Positions 4,348 through 52,874 of a stretch of 64,000 bases of DNA are shown here, in pieces (the first letter of the stretch is position 1; the number at the start of each line of letters is the position of its first letter). Below the pieces are notes generated by a model. The model ran no database searches and was not told the origin of the DNA. It worked only from the letters and a program-made list of their open reading frames with translations. This DNA comes from an uncultured Lachnospiraceae bacterium (GTDB lineage: Bacteria > Bacillota > Clostridia > Lachnospirales > Lachnospiraceae). The position numbers and the translations under genes were made by a program. The stretch is taken from NCBI GenBank assembly GCA_900317555.1, contig ONHF01000009.1, positions 1-64,000 of the forward strand, written 5' to 3'.

Positions 4348-5669
4348 GAAAAAAGATTCAGAACAGCATGTTTATGGTGGTTGCGGCGTCGCTTCTGGTG
4401 GCGTACGCAATCACCATTTTATTCATGTACGGAAAAATCAGAGAGATCACGGAGAAAAATATCCGGCAGCAGGCCGTCTACATCGGCGCCGCGATCAATA
4501 TTTCCGGCGAATCGTATCTGAGCCGGCTGGACAAGGCCTGGCCCGGCACGCGCGTGACACTAATCAGTCAGGACGGCAAGGTCCTCTACGATACGGATGA
4601 GGGCGAATATTCGTTTGAGAATCATAAGGACCGGCCGGAGGTCGAGCAGGCGCTGCGCGGCGGCGAAGGCTCCGATATCCGCCATTCCGCGACGATCGGC
4701 GAAGACATGCTGTATTACGCGGTCAGACTCGATGACGGAAATGTGATCCGCGTTGCGCAAACGCTCAGCACGGTCTGGAAAACAGCCATGCAGTTCATGC
4801 CGGTGATGCTGGGGATAGTTGCGGTTATGATGGCGGCCGCGTACTTCATCGCCAAGCAGCAGTCGAGGCGCCTCGTGCAGCCGATCAACAGATTGAACCT
4901 TGACGAGCCTCTGGAGAATGATATCTACGAAGAACTGCAGCCTCTGCTGCGGCGCATCGATGAGCAGAACAGGCAGAAAGACGCGGTCGCGAACATGCGC
5001 AAGGAGTTTTCGGCAAATGTCTCTCATGAGCTCAAAACACCGCTGACCTCGATCTCCGGCTACGCCGAAATCATGCGCGACGGCCTTGTAAAGCCGGAGG
5101 ATATGCAGAAATTCGCGAACCGGATCTATAACGAAGCGGAGCGGCTGATTCATCTGGTGAATGATATCATCAAGCTTTCCAAATTAGATGAAGGGAAAAT
5201 TTCGGCACAGAAGGAAGAAGTGAATCTTTTTGCGCTGTCGCGGGAAATCTGCGACAGACTGCAGCAGACCGCGCGGAAAAATGACGTCGGGCTTACGCTT
5301 TCGGGAGAAAACTGCGTGGTGAGCGGCATCGGCCAGCTCCTGCAGGAAATGATTTACAATCTGGTGGAAAACGCGATCAAATATAATAGAAAAGGCGGCA
5401 AGGTCAGCGTATGGACCGGGAATACGATAGAAGGTGTCTGCGTACGCGTAACGGACACCGGCATCGGGATCGCGCCCGCGGATCAGGAGCGGATATTTGA
5501 ACGGTTTTACCGAGTGGACAAGAGCCATTCCAAAGAGACCGGCGGAACGGGGCTGGGCCTTTCGATTGTAAAACACGGCGCCATGATCCACGGGGCGAAA
5601 GTGCGGGTAAAGAGTGAACTCGGCAAGGGAACGACGATGGAGATTCTGTTCCCACGCGCGGAAGGTTAA
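4344..5669 (+). CDS. sensor histidine kinase, PhoR-like
   Basis: A 441-residue membrane kinase. Membrane segments lie at about residues 9-29 and 151-170 and enclose a sensor region of about 120 residues. There is a short linker without an obvious PAS domain, then the H-box FSANVSHELKTPL (phosphorylated H228), an N-box (LVENAIKYN), and G-boxes (DTGIGI, GTGLGLS). It overlaps the response regulator gene by four bases and should phosphorylate it. The absence of a clear PAS domain makes it shorter than classic PhoR, so the assignment to phosphate sensing rests on context. A GC-rich hairpin follows at 5702-5733. Confidence 0.92.
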   Translation: MRKKIQNSMFMVVAASLLVAYAITILFMYGKIREITEKNIRQQAVYIGAAINISGESYLSRLDKAWPGTRVTLISQDGKVLYDTDEGEYSFENHKDRPEVEQALRGGEGSDIRHSATIGEDMLYYAVRLDDGNVIRVAQTLSTVWKTAMQFMPVMLGIVAVMMAAAYFIAKQQSRRLVQPINRLNLDEPLENDIYEELQPLLRRIDEQNRQKDAVANMRKEFSANVSHELKTPLTSISGYAEIMRDGLVKPEDMQKFANRIYNEAERLIHLVNDIIKLSKLDEGKISAQKEEVNLFALSREICDRLQQTARKNDVGLTLSGENCVVSGIGQLLQEMIYNLVENAIKYNRKGGKVSVWTGNTIEGVCVRVTDTGIGIAPADQERIFERFYRVDKSHSKETGGTGLGLSIVKHGAMIHGAKVRVKSELGKGTTMEILFPRAEG

Positions 5670-12898: not shown

Positions 12899-12972
12899 CG
12901 AGGCGTGGCTCAGTTTGGTAGAGCGCCGCGTTCGGGACGCGGAGGCCGCAAGTTCGAATCTTGTCGCCTCGA
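12899..12972 (+). tRNA. tRNA-Pro (anticodon CGG)
   Basis: A 74-base cloverleaf: acceptor strands CGAGGCG and CGCCTCG pair fully, the D arm contains GGCTCAGTTTGGTAGAGC, the anticodon stem CCGCG/CGCGG encloses loop TTCGGGA with anticodon CGG, and the T arm carries GTTCGAATC. The discriminator base is A at 12972. CCA is not encoded. A strong terminator follows directly. Confidence 0.96.
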
Positions 12973-29307: not shown

Positions 29308-29355
29308 TAATAGCTGTGGACGGTTTCGTCCGGATTCCAAATTCATAAATGAACA

Positions 29356-29440
29356 TCGCTAGGGGCGCTGACGCTGAGACTCCGCATTCGCGGGGACCCT
29401 TATTACTTGAACCGGATAATACCGGCGTAAGGAAGCAGAT
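29356..29440 (+). ncRNA. TPP riboswitch aptamer (THI element)
   Basis: The conserved THI-box parts appear in order: AGGGGCGCTGACGCTGAGA, an arm hairpin, ACCCTT, ACTTGA, CCGGATAAT, CCGGCGTAAGGAAGC. Flanking GCT and AGC can close P1. It precedes a thiamine salvage operon, so thiamine pyrophosphate binding should switch the operon off through the hairpin at 29458-29483. Confidence 0.95.
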
Positions 29441-29457
29441 TATCTGATAACGCGCAG

Positions 29458-49217: not shown

Positions 49218-49970
49218 TTACAGCTCGCACAGCTCATGGAGTGCATGTCCTTCAATCAGTATGCGGCAGTGCTCGGACAGATGCCTTCGTCTGCCGTCAG
49301 TTGCGGGAAGCTGCGTGCCGAATTCGGAAAGAGCCGCGAGAACGCACTGCTGCAGGCTCACTTCTTCCATTGTCGGCATGGAGAGCATGAGATAATAAGT
49401 TCCGTCCGCTTCGTCAAGGACAAGTGTGCTCTCATCCGGATAAGAGCCGCCCGAAGCCCTTGCGGCTTCGATTACCTCGTTCATCGATGAAAAAGCATAC
49501 AGGCGGTTGAGCATCAGATAATTCCGCAGTTCGGTTAACTGCTGGGCGTTTTGACGCACTGCTCTGCCTGCGCCGGCCGGCGTATCGGTACTCTGCGCTC
49601 CCTCCGCGGCCTTGCTGATCGTATTGATCAGCTGTTCAAAAGCATTCGGCTCGTCAGCGCTTTCTCCGGGAACCGCCTGCACGCCGGGAGCAAAGCTCGC
49701 AAAGCGGGTGTCAAGCTCCTCGGGATTTTCTACCTTCGTGACAACAAGAACAATGCTGTCGGAAGATGTGGGAACCGCTTCGATCATAAGCGGCATGTTT
49801 TCGGTAAAAAAACCGTATTTCGCAGCTGCCTGCTGCATCAGATCGCGGAACAGAGCCCTTGCCTTATCGGTTCCGTAGGCGAGCTCACTGAGCCGGAGCT
49901 GCCTTTGCGCGAGATCCTCGCTGGTCAGTGTGCAACGGATCTGGTTATCATTTATTTTTTCGATCTTCAT
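49218..49970 (-). CDS. mecA: adaptor protein MecA
   Basis: A 250-residue adaptor that delivers substrates to the ClpC ATPase and promotes its assembly. The N-terminal domain MKIEKINDNQIRCTLTSEDL is characteristic. An Ala/Thr/Glu-rich linker (about residues 95-140) follows, then the C-terminal ClpC-binding domain (YAFSSMNEVIEAAR, GSYPDESTLVLDE, EFGTQ). GGAGGTGC lies upstream. The gene has its own terminator and appears monocistronic. Confidence 0.95.
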   Translation of the reverse strand: MKIEKINDNQIRCTLTSEDLAQRQLRLSELAYGTDKARALFRDLMQQAAAKYGFFTENMPLMIEAVPTSSDSIVLVVTKVENPEELDTRFASFAPGVQAVPGESADEPNAFEQLINTISKAAEGAQSTDTPAGAGRAVRQNAQQLTELRNYLMLNRLYAFSSMNEVIEAARASGGSYPDESTLVLDEADGTYYLMLSMPTMEEVSLQQCVLAALSEFGTQLPATDGRRRHLSEHCRILIEGHALHELCEL

Positions 49971-50296: not shown

Positions 50297-50302
50297 TATG
50301 AT
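50297..50302 (+). promoter_or_regulatory. -10 element for candidate structured RNA
   Basis: TATGAT at 50297-50302 is 17 bp downstream of a weak TTTTCC (50274-50279). It would start transcription near 50309, exactly where the first stem of the candidate RNA begins. A TTGTTAACAA palindrome lies further upstream at 50137-50146. Confidence 0.4.
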
Positions 50303-50308
50303 TGTTAC

Positions 50309-50583
50309 TGCCGACGACATGAAAATCCGGTGTCGTAGGGAGGTGATGATCTGCATACCTGTCTGATTCATTTCCTGAATCACATCTGATTACGGCAACA
50401 GCCGTATCAAGGCCGGCTCCGGCCGATTTAGAACAGGTTTTCCACTATTTGCTGCTGCAGTACAAAACGACCTATTTATGTCCCGGCAGGACGCGCCGAT
50501 GCAAGGATACGGTCCCCACGGAATGAACCTTCCGGTCCCTCGGCAAGTCAGCAGTTCTGCGCCGCGAGAAGCGGCATCTTGTT
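50309..50583 (+). ncRNA. candidate structured non-coding RNA
   Basis: This segment is packed with small perfect hairpins in order: ACGACA/TGTCGT (50314, 50331), TGATTCA/TGAATCA (50364, 50376), TACGGC/GCCGTA (50391, 50401), GGCCGG/CCGGCC (50411, 50419) and CGGAA/TTCCG (50519, 50530). A long-range pair TGCCGA (50309) with TCGGCA (50540) could close the whole. It ends with GCCGC/GCGGC (50561-50575) followed by ATCTTGTT. No reading frame here looks like protein. The layout recalls abundant Firmicutes RNAs such as raiA, but I could not compare sequences. Confidence 0.5.
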
Positions 50584-50681
50584 ACATATCTTATATACCA
50601 TTTCTGCTGCCGGCCAGCAAGGATATGGCCGCGCGTCTTGAACGGATGCGGCAGGACATGTGTTTCTTCATTAATAATAGC

Positions 50682-50783
50682 AAATCAGGGGGCCCCGCTG
50701 TCTCCGCAAAGAGAAAGAAGAATCATATGCCTCTGCCGCATTCTGTTTGATGTTCCGCAGCCGCTGGCTGCCCTGATTTTTCA
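50682..50783 (+). other. long inverted-repeat region ending in T-run
   Basis: AAATCAGGG (about 50682-50690) and CCCTGATTT (about 50771-50779) are complementary and flank about 80 bases with further partial pairing; the 3' arm ends in TTTTTC. It may terminate transcription from upstream before the GH18 gene. Confidence 0.4.
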
Positions 50784-50806
50784 ATGACGCCTACACGGCA
50801 TTCTGC

Positions 50807-50812
50807 TATAAT
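50807..50812 (+). promoter_or_regulatory. promoter -10 for GH18 gene
   Basis: An extended -10, TGCTATAAT, with TATAAT at 50807-50812, stands 40 bases before the GH18 start. ATGACG 17 bp upstream is a poor -35. Confidence 0.6.
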
Positions 50813-50852: not shown

Positions 50853-52874
50853 ATGAGCGGAAACGGCAGAAGAACCTACCAGTTTGAAGATGATTACTTC
50901 GACGAATTTGAACCTGTTGAAGATTACGATACAGCATACGATGAATACGGGGATTATGAGGATTATAACAATAATGGAAGAGACGGAAGCAGCGCGGGCG
51001 GCGGTGGATCGCGCCGCGGCGGAAAAGAGACAGGAAAGAGAAAATCAGCGCAGGGAAAGAGCGTGAACAGGAATACGCGAAGGCAGGATCCCCGGCGGAA
51101 ATCCGCGGCTTCCCGCAGAAACGGCGGCGCTTCCGCGGGAACACGCAGGGGGAGATCCGGCGGTTCCAAGGGAGCGCCGGTGCTTCTCGTGATCCTGATG
51201 ATTGTCATTTTATGCGGCGCGTTCGGCGTGAAACTGGTGCTGGACAAGTATTCCTATTCCAAAAAAAAGGCGGATCTTGCGAGCGAGTACGGCATTACCG
51301 GAGACACGGATGTGGCAATCGTGTGGGGAAACCAGTATTCCGATGTACGCGCCAGGCTTCTGGACGGCAAGTACTATATGGCACTTGCGGATGTCAAGAA
51401 GAACCTGAACGACCGTTTTTACTATGGTAAGCAGAATAATGATGATACGACAGGGATTATCCTGTACGCACTGCCGGACAAGGTGGTTTCCACAATCCCG
51501 GGGACAACGCAGGTGAGCGTCGGTCAGGATCAGCAGACGCTCGACTACATGCCTGCCAGAAAAGAGGGCGACACAGTTTATCTTGCACTGGATTTTGTAA
51601 AACAATACACGAATTTCTCCTATCAGGCATTTAAAGATCCGAACCGCCTGCAGCTTGACAGTTCCTTTGACGAGCAGACCGTGGCGACAGTGAACAAAGA
51701 CACACAGATCCGGATCAGCGGCGGTATCAAGAGTGACGTAATGGAAGAGCTGTCCAAGGGAGCCAAAGTCACGATTCTCGAGAAGATGGACAACTGGTCC
51801 AAGGTGAAGTCGGAAGATGCGATTATCGGGTATGTGGAAAACAAACGCCTGTCCGGAGAAACCAAAGAGACGCCGCAGGCTGTGACGGACTACAAGGAGC
51901 CGGAATTTAAATCCAAGATGCTCGGCAAAAAGGTGAACATGGCTTTCCATGCCGTCTGGGGATCACAGGGAAATGTAACGCTGCAGTCCTATATGGCACC
52001 GACGAAGGATGTCAATGTCGTCGCGCCGACATGGTTCTGGATTACAAGCGACAATGGAGATATTACCAGTGCCGCGCAGCAAAGCTATGTGGATCAGGTT
52101 CACCAGATGGGCGCGCAGGTCTGGGCAGTTGTGGATAATTTCAATTCCACGGAGCTGCAGGACCGCTCAAAATTCCTTGCAACGCTTGATTCGAGGACGC
52201 ACCTGATAGAGCAGGTGATCAGAGAGGCTACAACTTACGGAATTGACGGAATCAATGTCGATTTTGAAATGATCGATCAGTCCTACGGACAGGATTACAT
52301 ACAGTTTATCCGTGAGCTGTCCATTGCCTGCCGCGCGAACAACCTGACATTGTCGGTGGACGATTATCCGGCTTATGATTTCAACAGCTTTTATGATATC
52401 AAGGAGCAGGGCGTTTTCGCGGATTATGTGGTTATCATGGGATACGACGAGCACTATCAGGGAAGTCAGGAGGCCGGCAGTGTTGCGTCAATCGGTTATG
52501 TGACCGAAGGAATCACGATGGCTCTGAAAAAGGTGCCGGCGCAGAAACTGATCAACGCGATTCCGTTCTATTCGAGAATCTGGTACACGGAAAACGGCAA
52601 GGTGACTTCCGAAGCCTATGGCATGCAGGATATTCAGAATTTTATCTCGGAGCATAATATGAGCGTGAACTGGAACGCGGAGGCGGGCCAGAACTATGCG
52701 GAAACGACGGAAGGTGATAAACTGATTCAGATCTGGGTCGAAGATTCCCAGTCCATTAAGCAGAAGCTGGATGTCATGACGGCGAACAAGCTGGCAGGTG
52801 TCGCGGAATGGAGGCTGCAGTTTGAAACGGCCGATGTCTGGGATGTTATCAGCAACTATATGAATCAGGAATAA
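50853..52874 (+). CDS. membrane-anchored glycoside hydrolase family 18 protein
   Basis: A 673-residue envelope protein. The first 105 residues are disordered, acidic then Arg/Gly/Ser-rich, ahead of a single membrane anchor at about 108-128. Residues 130-280 resemble a copper-amine-oxidase-like/stalk domain, about 285-340 an SH3-like domain (TQIRISGGIKSD, ENKRL), and the C-terminal 310 residues a GH18 barrel with catalytic DGINVDFE (E472), as in YaaH/YdhD-type spore or wall glycosidases. GGAAAGGAAG precedes the ATG. It probably trims peptidoglycan or another GlcNAc polymer outside the cell. Confidence 0.88.
   Translation: MSGNGRRTYQFEDDYFDEFEPVEDYDTAYDEYGDYEDYNNNGRDGSSAGGGGSRRGGKETGKRKSAQGKSVNRNTRRQDPRRKSAASRRNGGASAGTRRGRSGGSKGAPVLLVILMIVILCGAFGVKLVLDKYSYSKKKADLASEYGITGDTDVAIVWGNQYSDVRARLLDGKYYMALADVKKNLNDRFYYGKQNNDDTTGIILYALPDKVVSTIPGTTQVSVGQDQQTLDYMPARKEGDTVYLALDFVKQYTNFSYQAFKDPNRLQLDSSFDEQTVATVNKDTQIRISGGIKSDVMEELSKGAKVTILEKMDNWSKVKSEDAIIGYVENKRLSGETKETPQAVTDYKEPEFKSKMLGKKVNMAFHAVWGSQGNVTLQSYMAPTKDVNVVAPTWFWITSDNGDITSAAQQSYVDQVHQMGAQVWAVVDNFNSTELQDRSKFLATLDSRTHLIEQVIREATTYGIDGINVDFEMIDQSYGQDYIQFIRELSIACRANNLTLSVDDYPAYDFNSFYDIKEQGVFADYVVIMGYDEHYQGSQEAGSVASIGYVTEGITMALKKVPAQKLINAIPFYSRIWYTENGKVTSEAYGMQDIQNFISEHNMSVNWNAEAGQNYAETTEGDKLIQIWVEDSQSIKQKLDVMTANKLAGVAEWRLQFETADVWDVISNYMNQE

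Follow-up and report, generated by a model that had tools for sequence, protein, structure and literature searches.

Relation to described stabilisers and stand-alone RNAs

Agaisse and Lereclus reportedly described the STAB-SD type of 5′ stabilisers of Bacillus mRNAs in 1996. For Bacilli, a review states that a strong Shine-Dalgarno (SD) sequence stabilises untranslated leaders even when an initiation codon is lacking (PMC3997798). The locus analyzed here lies in a 64-kb stretch of Lachnospiraceae DNA (the window) and resembles such elements in three respects: a strong SD, complementary over 9 nt in the window, is located close to the putative 5′ end, a usable start codon is unneeded, and the genome carries an RNase J gene (3.8e-184). 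It differs from them in that the SD-like block is part of a structured RNA, which has a putative promoter to itself, whereas STAB-SD elements lie in leaders of protein-coding genes.

Several stand-alone RNAs offer further points of comparison. raiA/ModT (RF03072; PMC11706538) is a stand-alone folded RNA of Bacillota, as the RNA described here would be. However, it occupies another locus, and no covariance match over its cut-off was obtained for the mecA-GH18 RNA. raiA is not known to contain an SD-like block. OLE is likewise a large, ornate non-coding RNA, but measures about 600 nt, and Rfam gave no match between it and the mecA-GH18 RNA. Sponge RNAs of the CsrB/RsmY type carry several copies of a short motif, GGA, whereas the motif of the mecA-GH18 RNA is CA(U/C)(A/U)UCU, present in zero to five copies. 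Also, Clostridiales-1, an uncharacterised RNA of Clostridiales, was encountered in one member of the genus (RF01699, 113.5 bits; L037, positions 4650-4826), upstream of the folded RNA. This is a separate element on the opposite strand and does not match the mecA-GH18 RNA.

We consider the mecA-GH18 RNA a real representative of a conserved, uncatalogued class of structured RNAs, whose structure is well supported but whose function is weakly understood. The segment from 50297 to about 50750-50781 is read as a single-copy RNA gene. The sequences show that it is conserved, syntenic, and confined to one strand, that it is structured and enriched in boxes, that its SD match is long and no frame behind it is conserved, and that the genome encodes RNase J; its transcription, 30S docking, stabilisation, trans role, and partner are inferred. 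With it, the Lachnospiraceae, abundant bacteria of the gut and rumen, gain an RNA that is conserved, covaries, and lies outside the Rfam 15 families. Among the articles covered by a literature search, none described an RNA beside mecA in this family.

Genomic context

The source assembly comprises 2.29 Mb in 32 contigs. The gap between mecA and the GH18 gene measured 882 nt in the window, in agreement with the length of about 880 bp in the initial annotation, whose sequence features were recovered at the same positions. mecA (49218-49970) is divergent and lies on the reverse strand, as derived from its open reading frame and a Pfam match (PF05389, 2.3e-58). The other flank is formed by a GH18 gene whose product also contains a bacterial SH3 domain (50853-52874; PF00704, 5.1e-24; PF08239, 1.5e-7) on the forward strand, with the start codon at 50853 being our choice within the frame. 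All features of the RNA given below are also on the forward strand. The GH18 protein was present in 61 of the 62 genus genomes, and 60 stretches upstream of it were extracted (30 loci and 30 regions), most of which were examined by reading. The 17 named relatives were all metagenome bins.

Putative promoter and extent of the RNA

Transcription would start near 50309 from a promoter of the RNA's own. The −10 box TATGAT, noted earlier ahead of the first paired segment, is present at 50297-50302; a sigma-70 scan, however, reported no promoter at this place, indicating that a good −35 hexamer is missing. The preceding TGG fits an extended −10.

Downstream, the RNA reaches further than first proposed. 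The GC hairpin with a T-rich tail that had been taken as the end of the unit (GCCGC/GCGGC, GCCGCGAGAAGCGGC, 50561-50575) turned out to be internal, with conservation running on past it to about 50747. A long imperfect hairpin with GGGGGCCCCGC inside occupies 50641-50747, followed at 50757-50781 by a terminator-like hairpin, GCAGCCGCTGGCTGC with the tail CCTGATTTTT, a consensus match that possibly marks the transcript end. In total, the consensus scan gave five terminator-like sites in the region, compared with 0.9 in shuffled sequences. With the long hairpin and the terminator-like site as its end, the transcript would measure about 440-470 nt; on our best reading, the RNA gene is predicted to span 50297 to about 50750-50781, roughly 450 nt. 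In many relatives, examined by reading, the final element is also a long hairpin, which includes a GGNCCC(C)GC stretch and is followed by a T-rich tail. A match to MIR1223 at 50642-50745 (E 0.015) was discarded, since it reflects the long imperfect hairpin only.

Hairpins and predicted fold in the window

Between 50309 and 50583, we counted six non-overlapping perfect hairpins, each having 5 bp or more in its stem. Shuffled sequences contained 1.85 on average, and none of 500 shuffles reached six, so the hairpin density pointed out in the initial annotation holds, although the number given there was five. The fold energy corresponded to a z-score of −1.88 (8 of 200 shuffles were as good), with −2.15 for the reverse strand, and alone would not convince.

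The minimum free energy (MFE) fold and the hairpin analysis define the following elements: (i) the long-range stem P1, in which CTGCCG (50308-50313) pairs with CGGCAG (50484-50489), at a place where the long-range stem covaries in relatives; (ii) the 5′ hairpin P2, ACGACAT/GTGTCGT (50314-50336); (iii) the hairpins B1 (50364-50382, a perfect 7-bp stem), B2 (50391-50406), and B3 (GGCCG/CGGCC, 50411-50424); and (iv) domain C (50495-50544), formed by the MFE stem GCCGA/TCGGC and inner helices, whose equivalent in relatives shows changes on both sides of the stem. The hexamers TGCCGA (50309-50314) and TCGGCA (50540-50545), which had been thought to enclose the hairpins as a long-range pair, do occur in the sequence, but this pairing was rejected: the MFE fold engages CTGCCG in P1 and pairs TCGGC (50540-50544) with GCCGA (50495-50499) in domain C. 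The order of the MFE helices in the window equals the order supported by covariation in relatives.

Conservation and covariation in the genus

Identity to the sister genome G004 was 95.5% for the RNA, 94.8% for positions 50564-50640, and 95.5% for 50641-50752, compared with 82.5% for the spacer ahead of the promoter and 91.4% for mecA (618 bases compared). This difference points to selection on the RNA. By BLAST, the RNA was clearly found in G004 only, at 95%.

For one clade of 14 RNAs (A3), a MAFFT alignment revealed three shared elements: a long-range stem, made up of three helices, that surrounds a central domain; a hairpin in the centre; and the 3′ domain C. Five helices, picked from a scan of this same alignment and therefore favoured by the choice, were paired in 95.6% of the cells and displayed changes on both sides in 8 pairs, versus 1.8 after shuffling (0 of 500 shuffles as high). 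When the partner was slid by one to three columns, at most 49.5% of the cells were paired. RNAalifold, run unaided, picked the same stems, including the long-range stem. The A3 equivalent of P2 was paired in 68 of 70 cells, with no changes on both sides. In the window, the P2 bases can alternatively extend P1, giving a duplex of −24.3 kcal/mol. Since P2 and the inner P1 helices share bases both in clade A3 and in the window (50308-50336), the 5′ element is possibly bistable.

A covariance model (R1) was trained on the 14 A3 RNAs only, with the window left out. Searched against the genus, it matched 18 of 62 genomes, 14 of which formed the training set, with one match in each matched genome. 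The matches outside the training set were at the same place, in G080 (7.5e-9), G023 (5.3e-6), G019 (9.2e-5), and the sister G004 (0.0023), all values per genome. A further species, G020, matched with 1.2e-6 in a search over 48 sources and was unreported in the whole-genome search. Conservation of the segment in relatives, on which the earlier proposal depended, is thus seen at the same place in the genus, with R1 matches in five further species. For the window itself, R1 scored 13.4 bits on the 882-nt gap (model positions 21-195, E 2.9e-4) and 11.3 bits among the 48 sources (E 0.28), and the whole-genome search did not report the window RNA; the local R1 alignment puts the window P1 elsewhere than the MFE fold does. 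In the alignment of 19 matches fitted to R1, which leans towards its own model, changes on both sides were seen in 34 of 52 pairs, compared with 12.5 after shuffling. Aligning homologous loci, as had been suggested, therefore yielded covariation above that of shuffled sequences in both alignments.

A simple sense signature was also scanned for, consisting of a −10-like hexamer 34-46 nt before a purine-rich SD-like motif, with either a CACG loop or a box (see below) further downstream. Of the 60 loci, 5 fell short of the 900 nt required; among the remaining 55, it was present in 39, versus a mean of 0.45 in shuffled sequences, and in 30 with both the CACG loop and the box (shuffled mean 0.05); it was found in none of the 55 on the reverse strand. 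Some of the misses are members of the R1 clade that the simple pattern does not catch. A test of the GTATC/GATAC helix separated own from swapped partners weakly, with means of 4.63 and 4.29 ± 0.19, the former inside the swapped maximum of 4.90; strong helices were found in 25 of 39 loci, compared with a swapped mean of 17.9 and a maximum of 24. For this test, 5 of 44 listed loci had been dropped for want of a CACG loop, and its lack of a clear separation is due to most sequences sharing the same strand.

We also noted that one assembly (G030) contains two GH18 loci, on contigs C3 and C27 (L034 and L072). An RNA-like stretch was recognized by reading upstream of the first, and the signature (−10-like hexamer, SD-like motif, and CACG loop or box) precedes the second, as in G028 (L074). 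With two GH18 loci, each preceded by such a stretch, the assembly may be mixed.

Boxes and enriched motifs

Three copies of the motif CA[TC][AT]TCT occur in the window: box 1, CACATCT (50381-50387), whose first two bases overlap hairpin B1, box 2, CATATCT (50585-50591), and box 3, CATTTCT (50599-50605). In 30 hand-chosen genus RNAs, counted over the stretch that begins with the SD block and ends at the putative GH18 promoter, the motif was present in 57 copies, compared with a mean of 5.9 and a maximum of 12 in 200 shuffles, and in 2 copies on the reverse strand. Individual RNAs carried zero to five boxes, with at least two in 16 of the 30, one in 13, and none in 1. An open ranking of 7-mers in the same RNAs was led by CACGGAA and CATATCT, with AAGGAGG and CATTGTC just behind. 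CACGGAA, located in domain C of the window (50517-50523), was the most enriched, being present in 19 of 30 RNAs versus 0.95 expected. As the sequences are related, the box and 7-mer counts are not independent. The CA(U/C)(A/U)UCU box may bind a partner.

A Shine-Dalgarno-like block as a candidate docking site

The SD-like block GGAGGTGAT (50339-50347) consists of nine contiguous bases complementary to the 3′ tail of 16S rRNA and is situated about 30 nt from the predicted transcript start. Matches of at least 8 bases to the 16S tail are confined to 18 clusters in the whole window on both strands, the block included. Of the 62 genus assemblies, 2 contained an exact copy of the 19-base 16S end. 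Among 51 hand-anchored loci of the 60, 42 carried at least 8 contiguous complementary bases (8-11 nt). By lineage, the block slides along the 16S complement, with AGAAAGGAGG in some and GGAGGTGAT in others. Such sliding is expected if the selected partner is the ribosome and not a fixed part of the same RNA. Start codons at a distance of 4-10 nt behind the SD core were seen in only 2 of the 51 loci, 25 of the 51 had no start codon at 0-12 nt, and no conserved, properly spaced reading frame was found behind the SD in these loci.

By analogy with STAB-SD elements, we favour, with a likelihood a little short of even, a structured non-coding RNA that is independent of its neighbours and docks the 30S subunit at its 5′ end without translation. 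In this proposal, the 5′ end would fold into the long-range P1 and the small hairpin P2, followed by the strong SD-like block, which would pair with the free 3′ end of 16S rRNA and so dock a 30S subunit. For want of a start codon at the proper distance, this subunit would rarely or never initiate. Together with the 5′ stem, it could block 5′-to-3′ decay by RNase J and render the RNA long-lived. The stabilised body, comprising the central hairpins, domain C with its CACGGAA loop, the boxes, and the long 3′ hairpin, might then act in trans, and the CA(U/C)(A/U)UCU boxes would be where a partner, either protein or RNA, makes contact. A complement of 8-11 nt to 16S rRNA with no well-spaced start codon makes for a clear prediction, namely 30S docking without initiation.

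More tentatively, the RNA may be viewed as a new class of large structured Lachnospiraceae RNA that offers a near-maximal docking site and no gene. It would recruit 30S subunits for its stability or for the sensing or holding of idle ribosomes, its boxes would titrate a partner, and it would have a common origin with the leader of a small protein gene found divergent from mecA in part of the family.

A sensor of ribosome availability or a sponge for 30S subunits appears unlikely. Here, the SD block would bind free 30S subunits, and internal stretches resembling an anti-SD (CCUUCC, the boxes, and GCUUCCC in relatives) would compete for it, so that the fold reports or lowers the amount of free 30S. 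The 16S complementarity in 42 of 51 loci fits this idea, as does the capacity of the block to pair internally: it forms 8 bp with UGCUUCCC in 14 of 14 A3 sequences, and RNAalifold pairs it with a UCAUAUCU box. The internal pairings show no covariation, however, and a sponge would need to be abundant. The capacity of the block to pair internally also speaks against the favoured docking.

Position ahead of the GH18 gene

Orientation and synteny link the RNA with the GH18 gene in the genus, and both the 3′ hairpin and the terminator-like site lie ahead of this gene. The RNA could thus act in cis as a leader or attenuator that senses a ligand or state, with the 3′ hairpin deciding on read-through. 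We regard this as improbable, as the window has a promoter-like site after the hairpin and ahead of GH18. This site (50784-50812) agrees with the sigma-70 consensus at 10 of 12 positions and contains TATAAT at 50807-50812 preceded by TG; as a consensus match, it belongs to 2 sites found versus 1.6 in shuffles. In many relatives, reading also revealed a TGCTATAAT-like box between the final hairpin and GH18. Moreover, a different small gene takes the place of GH18 in other genera. The initial annotation had favoured a folded RNA over an mRNA leader. Within the genus, this is likely, given the promoter-like site that separates GH18 from the RNA. Elsewhere, however, a similar RNA directly precedes a small gene.

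Similar layouts beside mecA in other genera

In other genera, a similar layout was found upstream of mecA or of a gene for a protein of 65-80 aa. Where mecA and the small gene are divergent, it consists of an SD-like block near the promoter and a long-range 5′ helix. In 15 of 19 hand-picked leaders, the duplex between the 5′ and 3′ parts had a z-score of about −2 or lower (mean −2.35). Of 30 small-gene loci, 20 carry the motif [TA]AT[AG]TCA[CT] ahead of the frame, and TA?TATCAC was present in 14 copies in 18 leaders, versus 1.0 in shuffles. The small protein gene was detected in 83 of 150 genomes, each from a different genus, and is absent from the window genome.

Besides the window's own, 29 loci upstream of mecA were inspected, 17 from outside the family and 12 from inside, one of the latter being only 128 nt long. 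The 17 extra-family loci lacked the UAUAUCAC/CACGGAA-type motif except for L127 and L129, where it lies in the mecA leader itself. Seven of the 12 in-family loci (L115, L116, L118-L121, L128) displayed the RNA layout by reading.

The small protein itself, of about 65-80 aa, has a motif like YMxDFxxDxxGxIxEIxFDxV (L098 from 1507 onward, L101, L103, L104, L115, L128, L143-L172) and gave no Pfam or NCBIfam match above chance. Its gene is divergent from mecA in some genomes and, by reading, located behind a CpaE-like gene in others.

Possibly, the genus RNA descends from a family-wide leader that regulates the small protein gene beside mecA; this gene would have been lost in the genus, and the RNA kept as a stand-alone regulator or a relic. 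The similar layouts, the duplex scores, the motif in small-gene loci, and the distribution of the gene, present in 83 genomes and missing from that of the window, speak for such a descent. On the other hand, R1 matched none of the 150 genomes (one per genus), so that homology at the family level rests on layout, without covariance proof, and the CA(U/C)(A/U)UCU box was absent from the 18 leaders of other genera. A relic alone is improbable, since the RNA is more conserved than the compared part of mecA (95.5 vs. 91.4%). We judge the descent as a whole doubtful. A link between the genus RNA and the leaders of other genera may exist on the basis of their sequence layout. For the favoured stand-alone RNA, the association with mecA and the small protein of many genera provides a route to its function.

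Start codons close to the block and known RNA classes

The ATG following the block in the window lies only 2 nt behind GGAGG and opens the tiny frame MICIPV behind GGAGGTGAT, which had been pointed out before. The frame is there, but it is not conserved: as noted above, about half of the loci have no nearby start, and the frames differ between clades. That the SD block starts a leader peptide of a short coding RNA is very improbable: a start codon 0-3 nt behind the core occurs in 24 of the 51 loci (at 2 nt in 15, the window included) and close relatives share similar peptides, but spacings of 0-3 nt are shorter than usual for initiation, starts at 4-10 nt are nearly lacking, and the peptides differ between clades.

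The possibility that the RNA is a raiA/ModT, 6S, OLE, or Clostridiales-1 RNA, a T-box, or a riboswitch can practically be set aside, although it resembles raiA and OLE in its size and its ornate folding. A search of the gap with Rfam at E up to 10 returned six hits, all below the cut-off and raiA not among them; the RNA had no match at gathering thresholds in 20 relatives, and a search of 12 loci with E allowed up to 0.5 returned no more than two leader matches, both below threshold (L119, L121). The covariance search proposed at the outset for raiA, 6S, and OLE thus yielded no family over the cut-off on the RNA. The suggested likeness to raiA was not borne out either: RF03072 (cut-off 101.3 bits) was reached in none of the 62 genus genomes, where the best score was 14.9 bits on contigs other than that of the GH18 locus, and in none of 100 family genomes, the own one included, in scans in which no control genome exceeded the cut-off. 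The other suggestion of the initial annotation, that the RNA is compactly folded and belongs to an unrecognised class, is supported by the synteny in the genus, the covariation, and the absence from Rfam 15. In the window, Rfam 15 at gathering thresholds found nothing on the RNA; its only matches lie elsewhere, a tRNA at 12899-12972 and a TPP riboswitch at 29351-29450.
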